64,000 nucleotides of DNA from Vibrio echinoideorum (GTDB lineage Bacteria > Pseudomonadota > Gammaproteobacteria > Enterobacterales > Vibrionaceae): positions 310,001-374,000 of the forward strand of contig NZ_AP025484.1 in NCBI RefSeq assembly GCF_024347455.1, written 5' to 3'. The position numbers were made by a program, and so were the translations under genes. The notes under the pieces are model-generated. The model was not told the DNA's origin. It searched no databases and saw nothing but the letters and a program-made list of their open reading frames with translations. Of the stretch, positions 52,616-54,912 are shown piece by piece (the first letter of the stretch is position 1; every line of letters begins with the position of its first letter).

Positions 52616-53101
52616 TTAATCGTATCTGCCGTAATCGGTAAGCATTTTCTTAAGCATGCTATTAACGTCTTTGGTCTTCTTACTTCTTTTTGTTAATTGG
52701 CTAAGAGAGGTTGGTTTTGGTGTTTCAATTTTTTCGTTATCAACATATTCAACTTTGTCTTTCATTTTTTGTACTGCAGGTAATAGCATGCGAATCTCTT
52801 CGTTATTAGAGTTCGTCAGTACAACAATATTTTCAGACTCGACTTGCGCGATAGTCAGAATACCATGTTTTACGGATTCAACTTTTTCCCCAATCATAAT
52901 TGACTCAGGAGCTATTGAACGATCGGTAAGTTGACCTGTACGTAATTTAGCCGCACTGATAGCGCGGATATTTCCGGTATTTTCAAACGCAACAATAACA
53001 GTATGAGTATTATAATATTCAACTACTGTCACATAGCCATGTCTATTTGTTTTGAATCTAGCTCCATTGTTCATGTCGTGCGGAGCTTCCATTTTTTTCA
53101 C
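52616..53101 (-). CDS. protein with phage-type G-rf-tn domain, unknown function
   Basis: The 161-residue protein begins with GTG at 53101 after AGAGGA. Residues about 13-65 (GARFKTNRHGYVTVVEYYN, then VIVAFENTG, then LRTGQLTDRS) resemble a small domain that in phages often accompanies HNH homing endonucleases and AP2-type proteins. A second, weaker copy follows (IMIGEKVESVKHGILTIAQ ... VVLTNSNNEEIRML). The tail is basic (TKRSKKTKDVNSMLKKML). There is no nuclease domain. It lies upstream of the PTS operon in the same direction, separated by the palindromic region, so it may regulate or simply neighbour it. Confidence 0.65.
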   Translation of the reverse strand: MKKMEAPHDMNNGARFKTNRHGYVTVVEYYNTHTVIVAFENTGNIRAISAAKLRTGQLTDRSIAPESIMIGEKVESVKHGILTIAQVESENIVVLTNSNNEEIRMLLPAVQKMKDKVEYVDNEKIETPKPTSLSQLTKRSKKTKDVNSMLKKMLTDYGRYD

Positions 53102-53420: not shown

Positions 53421-53436
53421 TGTGATGAAAGTCTCA
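53421..53436 (+). promoter_or_regulatory. CRP-like site upstream of nupC leader
   Basis: TGTGATGAAAGTCTCA matches TGTGA-N6-TCACA with one mismatch and has A/T flanks (AAAAA before, CTTAA after). Nucleoside transporters are classic CRP targets, so this site probably drives the following leader and gene. Confidence 0.65.
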
Positions 53437-53454
53437 CTTAACTGTCTATACTTC

Positions 53455-53551
53455 TCTTCCGGTTTTAAGCCGGTGCTTAGCCAATACAAGCCGTCACATG
53501 GATATGTGAATGACCCCACGGACCGGACCAGCTACGTTCCACTGCTTGTAT
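53455..53551 (+). promoter_or_regulatory. structured RNA leader of nupC (candidate riboswitch or attenuator)
   Basis: A first hairpin of CCGG type (about 53459-53473) is followed by an element closed by ATACAAGC (53484-53491) with GCTTGTAT (53544-53551), 8 perfect pairs. Inside are CACAT/ATGTG (within 53495-53508) and CCGT/ACGG. The helix ends directly before the ribosome site of the upstream ORF. I do not recognise it as a known riboswitch class. Confidence 0.55.
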
Positions 53552-53565
53552 AAGGTGATCTTTAC

Positions 53566-53685
53566 ATGAACAACTCGTTGTTACATTCGCTAACGTTGTT
53601 AGCTCCTTCATCGCGTAGCGTTTTGCTTGCGGTTCTTTGTCCTATTCCTTTGATGTCATTCGTTTGGCTCATGTTTACTCTTTAA
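53566..53685 (+). CDS. 39-residue upstream ORF (possible leader peptide)
   Basis: ATG 53566 has AAGGTGAT seven bases upstream, a good ribosome site. The 39-codon frame ends with TAA at 53685, 18 bases before the nupC ATG and overlapping its ribosome-site region (TAAGGA). The product starts MNNSLLHSLTLLAPSSRS and continues hydrophobic with Leu, Val and Pro. It may be a leader peptide or a small membrane peptide. Leader-peptide status is inferred. Confidence 0.5.
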   Translation: MNNSLLHSLTLLAPSSRSVLLAVLCPIPLMSFVWLMFTL

Positions 53686-53703
53686 GGATTACTAGGACAC
53701 ATT

Positions 53704-54912
53704 ATGAATATTCTATTTGGTTTTGTCGGTGTTCTTTCACTGATTGCTTGTGCGTACCTGTTATCTGAAAGTCGCTCTTCGATTAACTGGAAAACAGTGT
53801 CTCGAGCATTACTACTTCAAATCGGTTTTGCCGCCTTGGTATTGTACTTCCCGTGGGGACAATTGGCGCTAACGAGCATGAGCAATGGTGTTTCAAGCCT
53901 ACTTGGTTTTGCGGATGCTGGTATCGCTTTCCTATTCGGTGATCTGGCTACTGAAGGTTTCATTTTCGCGATTCGCGTACTTCCAATCATTATCTTCTTC
54001 AGTGCTTTAATCTCTGCGCTATATTACTTAGGCGTCATGCAAAAAGTGATTCAAATCTTGGGTGGAGCAGTGCAAAAACTGCTTGGGACAAGTAAAGCTG
54101 AATCGCTGGTAGCAACCGGTAATATTTTCCTTTCTCAGGGTGAGTCTCCTCTTCTTATTCGTCCATTTTTAAAGTCTATGACTCGTTCTGAACTGTTTGC
54201 GGTAATGGCAGGCGGTATGGCATCGGTAGCTGGTAGTGTGCTTGGTGGCTATGCTGGCCTTGGTGTTGAGCTTAAATACTTGATCGCAGCAAGTTTCATG
54301 GCGGCTCCGGGTAGCTTGTTGATGGCGAAGATCATTGTTCCTGAGCGCAGTACGCCTAGCGACTATGAGCATATCGAGCTTGATAGAGCAGACCAAAGCA
54401 ACGTGATTGACGCATTGGCTAGCGGCGCGATGAACGGTATGAAAGTCGCAGTAGCGGTAGGTACTATGTTGATTGCATTCGTGAGTGTGATTGCCATGGT
54501 GAACACGGGCCTAGAAAGCCTAGGTGAAACGTTCGGTTTTGCTGGCATTACCCTGCAAGCTATCTTTGGTTACCTGTTCTCACCACTAGCATGGTTAATT
54601 GGTATCCCGAGTGATGAAGTGTTAATGGCAGGTTCTTACATCGGTCAGAAAATCGTAATGAACGAGTTTGTTGCTTTCATCGACTTCGTTGAAAATAAAG
54701 CGCTGCTATCTGAACACAGCCAAGTGATTGTGACTTTTGCTTTGTGTGGTTTTGCTAACATTGGCTCTATCGCGATTCAACTGGGTTCGATTGGTGTTAT
54801 GGCGCCAGAGCGTCGTGCTGAAGTGGCAAACTTAGGCTTGAAAGCGGTGGCGGCAGGTACGTTAGCAAACTTAATGAGTGCTTGTTTAGCGGGTATCTTC
54901 ATCCTGCTTTAA
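53704..54912 (+). CDS. nupC: NupC-family concentrative nucleoside transporter
   Basis: The 402-residue protein is a CNT-type Na+- or H+-coupled nucleoside importer. Seen: an N-terminal pair of helices, RVLPIIIFFSALISALYYLGVMQ near residue 93, GNIFLSQGESPLLIRPFLKSMTRSELF near residue 140 (substrate-binding region, QG/E-SP), MAAPGSLLMAKIIVPE near residue 198 and FALCGFANIGSIAIQLGSIGVMAP near the C-terminus. Length and motifs fit V. cholerae NupC. AGGA lies six bases before the ATG. It is preceded by a CRP-like site, a foldable leader and a 39-codon ORF. Confidence 0.95.
   Translation: MNILFGFVGVLSLIACAYLLSESRSSINWKTVSRALLLQIGFAALVLYFPWGQLALTSMSNGVSSLLGFADAGIAFLFGDLATEGFIFAIRVLPIIIFFSALISALYYLGVMQKVIQILGGAVQKLLGTSKAESLVATGNIFLSQGESPLLIRPFLKSMTRSELFAVMAGGMASVAGSVLGGYAGLGVELKYLIAASFMAAPGSLLMAKIIVPERSTPSDYEHIELDRADQSNVIDALASGAMNGMKVAVAVGTMLIAFVSVIAMVNTGLESLGETFGFAGITLQAIFGYLFSPLAWLIGIPSDEVLMAGSYIGQKIVMNEFVAFIDFVENKALLSEHSQVIVTFALCGFANIGSIAIQLGSIGVMAPERRAEVANLGLKAVAAGTLANLMSACLAGIFILL

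Follow-up and report, generated by a model that had tools for sequence, protein, structure and literature searches.

The leader of nupC in Vibrio echinoideorum raises the question of what a conserved RNA-like stretch, set directly in front of a ribosome site and a short upstream open reading frame (uORF), does for the transporter gene that follows. The leader lies within a 64,000-nt stretch of contig NZ_AP025484.1 (here called the window), and an initial annotation had read it as an undescribed riboswitch or attenuator, in which folding of the RNA controls the leader ORF and, through it, the transporter. Our comparative analysis indicates a structured cis-regulatory RNA that is most likely an orphan riboswitch.

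The features on which this reading was built are present in the window (Table 1): the CRP-like TGTGA-N6-TCTCA, the 68-base element with its two closing strands, and the ribosome site of a 39-codon ORF, which follows the element directly. The order is CRP-like site, TATACT box, small hairpin, 68-nt element, Shine-Dalgarno sequence (SD), uORF and nupC. The further statement that the uORF stop overlaps the nupC ribosome-site region is true in a loose sense only: the stop ends 18 nt upstream of the nupC ATG and 8 nt upstream of the nupC AGGA. The 161-aa neighbour of the leader (52616-53101, minus strand) matched no Pfam or NCBIfam family above cut-off.

Table 1. Features of the nupC leader, numbered by position in the window.
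Feature	Position	Strand	Remarks
CRP-like site TGTGA-N6-TCTCA	53421..53436	+	9/10 consensus bases; DNA-level control, outside the RNA
TATACT, probable -10 box	53447..53452	+	from sequence; one of three weak promoter-scan matches
Small hairpin CCGGTT/AGCCGG, probable RNA 5' end	53459..53473	+	weak
GCC, possible anti-SD (P0)	53480..53482	+	CC complementary to SD GG in most loci
Conserved RNA element, aptamer-like domain, 68 nt	53484..53551	+	comparative
P1 5' strand ATACAAGC	53484..53491	+	closes the element
P2	53492..53512	+	53492-53497 with 53506-53509 and 53511-53512; bulge 53510
P2 apical ANGGA	53498-53502	+	place of the variable P2b insert
P3	53515..53526	+	53515-53516 with 53525-53526; loop ANGGA 53518-53522
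Unpaired CC-A-GC	53528..53532	+	element C45, C46, G48, C49 invariant in alignment A4
P1 3' strand GCTTGTAT	53544..53551	+	adjoins the ribosome site
uORF SD AAGGTG	53552..53557	+	begins at the base right after the element
uORF, 39 codons, 39 aa, MNNSLLHSLTLLAPSSRSVLLAVLCPIPLMSFVWLMFTL	53566..53685	+	
Terminator-like hairpin (53610-53633) and U-rich tail	53610..53641	+	inside the uORF; weak
nupC, CNT nucleoside transporter	53704..54912	+	TIGR00804, E 1.8e-138; Pfam PF07662, PF01773, PF07670

Taken as single sequences, both the 68-mer (z -1.31) and the 281-nt leader (z -0.39) fold unremarkably, so that the case for the element rests on comparison; the inner stems of the minimum-energy fold differ from the conserved ones and were dropped for the comparative P2 and P3. 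A scan of the window against the 4227 families of Rfam 15 gave none at or above gathering threshold at the element, a permissive search of the leader (E up to 10) returned two snoRNA matches only, far below gathering, and at 12 loci of both subtypes described below there was again no match at the element; the two matches that these loci did give, a tRNA and a c-di-GMP-I riboswitch, lie outside it. The riboswitch (L201, 869-959, minus strand, 51.3 bits) belongs to a record of an uncultured Pseudoalteromonas and lies ~3.6 kb downstream of that record's CBU_0592-type element. Among open-licence PMC papers, which provide limited evidence, we found the element described nowhere, and the passages on nupC that came up concern expression or transport, none of them a leader RNA.

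Matches to the 300-nt leader were obtained by BLASTN in 118 of 196 genomes of the genus. At all 104 loci read from among these matches the nupC match adjoins the element, the core of which is nearly invariant between variable flanks; within the genus no letter of either P1 strand differs. A covariance model built from 65 sequences (R1) identified one copy in the genome of the window, 183 of 296 genomes of the family (5/13 genera) and 42 of 295 genomes of the order (8/99 genera); a second model (R2), built from 91 matches with the divergent ones included, identified 60 of 394 order genomes (11/114 genera) and 6 of 118 genomes in the family of one distant match, the samples used for the two models overlapping one another. 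Across the wider class both models returned the window's own genome only (R1, 1/369; R2, 1/274), under a stricter filter with which weak matches may be lost. One genome gave a second match of 27 bits beside transposase-like ORFs (L180), which looks like chance. For alignment A1, 4 of the 69 distinct elements were left out (L012, L073, L100 and L102), and the set A3 takes in L055, L061, L064 and L099.

Within the genus alone, none of 15 RNAalifold pairs showed a change on both sides; covariation emerged, in P2 and in an additional helix P4, once other genera were added. The absence of covariation, which the initial annotation had named as a refutation, would thus apply to the genus by itself and does not apply to the wider set. 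Alignment A4 (MAFFT, 59 chosen sequences, other genera included) was fitted to no structure, and in it P1, P2 and P3 together were paired in 88.8% of cells, compared with 85.5% when the 3' letters were redealt (0/500 as high) and at most 36.9% when the partners were slid. The covariation score was 0.149 against 0.103 for shuffled alignments, and six pairs exhibited both-sided changes against 3.5 in shuffles that ignore relatedness (7/500); a control slid by +3 also gave six such pairs, but its cells numbered 18 rather than 36 and its score was 0.036. The best-supported helix is P2, with 99.7% of A4 cells paired and both-sided changes in three of its six pairs. Among 92 distinct cores it occurs as UCAC/GUGA (62), UCUC/GAGA (11), UCAU/GUGA (8) and UUUC/GAGA (6), and more rarely as UUUC/GAAA, UAAC/GUUA and CCAC/GUGA (one each, the last with a C-A mismatch), with L172 and L196 unassigned to any version. 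Insertions of a variable hairpin, P2b, are confined to a single site in the apical loop of P2: the inserts measure 16-62 nt, and 16 of 21 are more stable than 95% of their own shuffles. P1 is paired in 89.0% of A4 cells. A-U and U-A replace each other in its two outer pairs, pair 1 is left open in 26 of 58 sequences, and pairs 3-8 never change on both sides. Families f25 and f12 show no clear distal counterpart to the 5' strand of P1. P3 reaches 72.0% in A4, with two near-constant C-G pairs and inner pairs in some clades only.

Further pairings were considered from the invariance of the bases involved, namely a putative short alternative P1' (G7-C8 with G48-C49) and a putative GGA-CC pseudoknot. 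Bases ahead of P1 could possibly pair with the SD in most loci (P0; GCC/GGU, CCC/GGG, CACCUU/AAGGUG); convincing as this appears by eye, the cognate pairs were no better than permuted ones, with permutations as good in 2411 of 5000 (50 distinct pairs) and 2242 of 5000 (38), and P0 stays no more than a possibility. With covarying stems and a place outside Rfam, the structured leader RNA that had been proposed is borne out: to judge from the alignments, the element is almost certainly a conserved, structured RNA. The same data bear on the notion that the stretch is a DNA operator, for instance for CytR, or is conserved by chance with its fold incidental. A conserved CRP-like site nearby and P1 strands identical throughout the genus would suit an operator, but the both-sided changes keep pairing and inserts of 16-62 nt are tolerated at one place, and we give this explanation hardly any credence.

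As for transcription, 78 of 91 loci have a CRP-like site that agrees with the consensus at 8 or more of 10 bases, which exceeds chance, given 6% of mononucleotide shuffles; none of the five f10 loci in this 91-locus set has one. Most loci also have a TATA[ACT]T box upstream, and in most vibrio-type loci the distance from the CRP-like site to TATACT is nearly constant. The centre of the site falls ~30 nt before the start predicted from TATACT, the usual CRP site being centred at -41.5; this placement is unusual for activation and could mark repression or another promoter. At the probable 5' end of the RNA some hairpin can form in 63 of 91 loci, compared with 37% of shuffles, a weak signal.

The element accompanies a particular transporter gene. 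Of the 78 genus genomes lacking a leader match, 16 were searched with the NupC of the window: the best homologue showed 54-56% identity in 14 and there was none at E 1e-20 in two, whereas at element-bearing loci of the genus the NupC identity is 72% or more (L074 excepted). R2 detected no element at nine NupC homologues of element-free genomes. Comparison of these loci indicates linkage of the element to one nupC ortholog. At L074 the nupC match consists of two overlapping partial pieces, and the gene looks broken or truncated beside an intact element.

The position of the element is tied to a start codon: in 82 of 91 loci this codon follows 14-24 nt (median 20) after GCUUG in the distal strand of P1, as found by a script that looked only 12-33 nt downstream. 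Imposing P1 lowered the modelled SD access at 14 of 23 chosen loci and raised it at 4, the mean being 0.32 with P1 formed and 0.41 with the P1 5' strand unpaired. Translational control of the next ORF is what we consider likely. Another role at the RNA level, as a binding site for some other protein or for a small RNA that base-pairs with it, or as an element of processing or stability, would accommodate the long invariant single-stranded stretches and the invariant inner P1 pairs; the placement, however, follows the start codon and not the transcript start, and we hold such a role to be distinctly improbable.

Which ORF follows the element differs between lineages. At 26 of the 104 nupC loci nupC comes directly, with no uORF, and starts 8-11 nt past the base aligned to 53556 (18 of 85 loci in a smaller set), whilst at 77 a gap of 118-206 nt precedes it, L074 being unclassified; because of these direct loci and those of the second subtype below, the uORF is a feature of some lineages only. 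Where it occurs, its stop tends to reach nupC: in the nupC set of A3 with an ATG after the element, 45 of 60 loci have the stop no more than 20 nt from the nupC start, where mononucleotide shuffles would give 8.5, although these loci are related and the 45 are therefore not independent. Among the 15 exceptions are family f2, whose uORF stops 113-193 nt short of nupC, a clade of five with ATG ORFs of 1-7 codons, and L082, which falls outside ±20 nt only through taking the first ATG (the next gives -8). Family f25 has no clear uORF. A clade comprising L055, L056, L058, L061 and L064 keeps the core, without an SD after P1 and without the usual ATG uORF; in L058 a GTG ORF of 31 codons ends 7 nt before nupC. 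In L033 in-frame QPLFT repeats have extended the uORF to 59 codons, with the stop still near nupC.

The uORF of the window's clade has a pN/pS of 0.22 (19 distinct sequences; 0.31 with three more divergent ones) and that of genus g11 one of 0.20 (5 sequences), with 0.37, 0.73 and 0.84 in three other groups; this comparison argues that the uORF is genuine and under purifying selection in two clades. Inside the window's uORF the terminator-like hairpin has a predicted energy of -8.4 kcal/mol, with 1 of 30 shuffles as good; as a general feature an intrinsic terminator was rejected, such hairpins being present in 17 of 30 regions and often no better than shuffles. The uORF leaders contain an excess of C over G, with a median ratio of 1.52 compared with 0.81 within nupC, which would suit Rho, but the ratio for the window is 1.15.

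An alternative is leader-peptide attenuation, in which ribosomes translating the uORF would do the sensing, through its codons or the nascent peptide, and the fold upstream would do no more than set initiation. In its favour are the purifying selection seen in two clades, the recurrent stop at nupC and the hairpin in the window's uORF; yet the 26 direct nupC loci and the loci of the second subtype have no uORF, the uORF peptides differ in sequence between clades, and 13 of the 30 regions have no terminator-like hairpin. We regard attenuation of this kind as improbable.

In the second subtype (families f10, f17 and f7) the element is followed directly not by nupC but by a gene of ~87 codons, and the two encoded proteins that were scanned belong to NCBIfam NF047864, the CBU_0592 family of membrane proteins (E 7.3e-30 and 4.8e-29). 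A pattern scan of named genomes yielded 19 stretches, of which 14 are elements by model and sequence; all 14 precede a CBU_0592-type gene, 13 of these ORFs being found by script and aligning with 60-70% identity to the first, and the start of the one at L191 being read by eye. The stretches L187, L190, L193, L198 and L200 had no R2 match at E 1 and were taken as chance. Titles of the CBU_0592-type records include Rheinheimera, Thalassotalea, Agarivorans and Alginatibacterium. All 26 CBU_0592-type rows can form an extra helix around P3, P4, as a perfect 5-bp helix with strands 5-6 nt before and 4-7 nt after the core, the best register having been chosen without a shuffled control and several of the 26 rows being one genome twice. 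P4 occurs in five versions: CGUCC/GGACG, CGCUC/GAGCG, GAUCC/GGAUC, UGUCC/GGACA and CGCCC/GGGCG. In L208 a long additional segment separates P4 from the distal strand of P1, with AGCTTGGAG still adjoining the start codon.

No CBU_0592 gene was detected in 11 of 12 nupC-type genomes tested; the twelfth (L235, family f12) has a CBU_0592 gene without the element in addition to its nupC-type element. Eight of nine CBU_0592-type genomes have a NupC of 52-60% identity, and the nupC loci of three such genomes contained no element. The AlphaFold model of CBU_0592 comprises three helices (mean pLDDT 78). A SemiSWEET-like half transporter was considered and rejected: Foldseek gave no match at E <= 0.001, and SemiSWEET chains appeared at E 3.4 and above, among unrelated helical proteins. 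Under the name CBU_0592 no paper was found in the open-licence PMC literature. If the element is a riboswitch, it would provide a functional lead for these proteins: sharing the switch with nupC would make this small three-helix membrane family a candidate transporter of the same compound, as would its absence from 11 of the 12 nupC-type genomes.

Both apical loops of the core suggest the strongest rival of the riboswitch reading, a leader of the CsrA type: a CsrA/RsmA dimer would bridge the P2 and P3 ANGGA loops and repress the next ORF, with no small-molecule ligand. ANGGA occurs in 79 of 89 P2 loops and 79 of 89 P3 loops, where only the preceding A is informative since the search pattern required GGA, and the two motifs start 18-21 nt apart in 69 of 89; this fits the preference of CsrA given in a review (PMC7652899), for ANGGAN hexaloops and for sites optimally more than 18 nt apart. 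Against this, in 20 of 89 the P2b helix displaces the first GGA from its hairpin loop, a GGA lies in the SD region in one of the 89 rows with a 3' strand (L156), CC-N-GC and the P1 strands are conserved though CsrA should not need them, and the element appears in no other genome of the two class-wide samples. Some CBU_0592-type loci do have a GGA in the SD (GGAG). In sum, CsrA-type control is unlikely in our estimate.

The reading that we prefer, and which we place somewhat above an even chance, is that of a riboswitch-like cis-acting RNA in which an aptamer-like sensor of 68 nt switches off translation of the next ORF. Within it, P1 would enclose P2 and P3 with their two ANGGA loops and the unpaired CC-N-GC, and the P2/P3 core with its conserved unpaired bases would be the sensor that stabilises P1. 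With P1 formed, and probably held by ligand, the ribosome site 3' of P1 would be harder to reach and the next ORF would not be started, so that the RNA would presumably work as an OFF switch. In the window the direct target would be the 39-codon uORF: if translated, its ribosomes would finish 18 nt before nupC and could serve nupC by coupling or reinitiation, and ribosomes on the uORF may also prevent Rho or the terminator-like hairpin from ending transcription. The same element would gate nupC directly in other species, or the CBU_0592 membrane protein. The reading of the initial annotation, a leader ORF gated by the fold and through it the transporter, is thus the best model for this locus, whilst its uORF step belongs to some lineages only.

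In favour of the riboswitch-like model we count the placement of the element just before the start codon of nupC and of CBU_0592, two unrelated families; its deep conservation combined with tolerated helix inserts; the covariation of P2, in A4 and in the 92 cores, and of P4; the element-free genomes without this nupC ortholog (16 of 78 searched); and the lower modelled SD access, the uORF stop at nupC and the selection on the uORF. Counted against it are the unremarkable single-sequence fold, the 0/15 pairs of the genus-only alignment, the constancy of P1 pairs 3-8, the frequently open pair 1 and the failure of P0 to covary, along with the missing distal P1 of f25 and f12, the +3 slide, the uORF exceptions and the pairs of ANGGA loops.

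That the ligand is a small molecule seems rather probable, and a nucleoside or nucleotide would be a natural guess. The fullest version of the model, in which a new riboswitch class of one Gammaproteobacteria order, with two architectures, senses a nucleoside-derived metabolite and turns the next ORF off, and in which a translated uORF in many vibrios converts a start-codon switch into a coupled one, is tentative and, taken jointly, falls a little short of an even chance. Should the element be a riboswitch, it would constitute a new class with a cheap path to ligand identification. It would also offer one sensor acting side by side on a transporter gene directly and via a coupled uORF, making the role of uORFs under riboswitches testable.

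Among known systems, the NAD+-II (pnuC), xanthine (NMT1) and purine riboswitches adjoin genes for nucleoside or nucleobase transport. The element differs from them in matching none of the 4227 Rfam families, a comparison made by Rfam scan only. In glgC, a target of CsrA, a GGA site overlaps the SD, whereas nearly all nupC-type loci have no GGA over the SD. The two ANGGA loops ~20 nt apart near a ribosome site do resemble the leaders repressed by CsrA/RsmA, as these are presented in PMC7652899, from which the P2b inserts, the extra invariant bases and the extra covarying stems set the element apart. A further likeness is to orphan riboswitch candidates from comparative genomics, described in PMC8632094 as conserved 5'-leader RNAs with covarying stems near transporter genes: the present element is likewise a conserved 5'-leader RNA with covarying stems that adjoins a transporter gene, and one of these candidates, proX, is proposed to occlude a ribosome site. 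By gene mention these motifs are distinct from ours, nupC having 0 occurrences in PMC8632094 and PMC11109978. For the uORF, the comparison is with the B12 riboswitch of Mycobacterium tuberculosis ppe2: the cobalamin aptamer and its sequence are unrelated to the element, and Rfam finds no known riboswitch in the window. According to PMC11260477, the ppe2 riboswitch is a compact OFF switch at the level of translation that acts first on a translated uORF, uPPE2, on the translation of which the downstream gene depends, and it thereby supplies a precedent for the riboswitch-gated uORF that we propose ahead of nupC.
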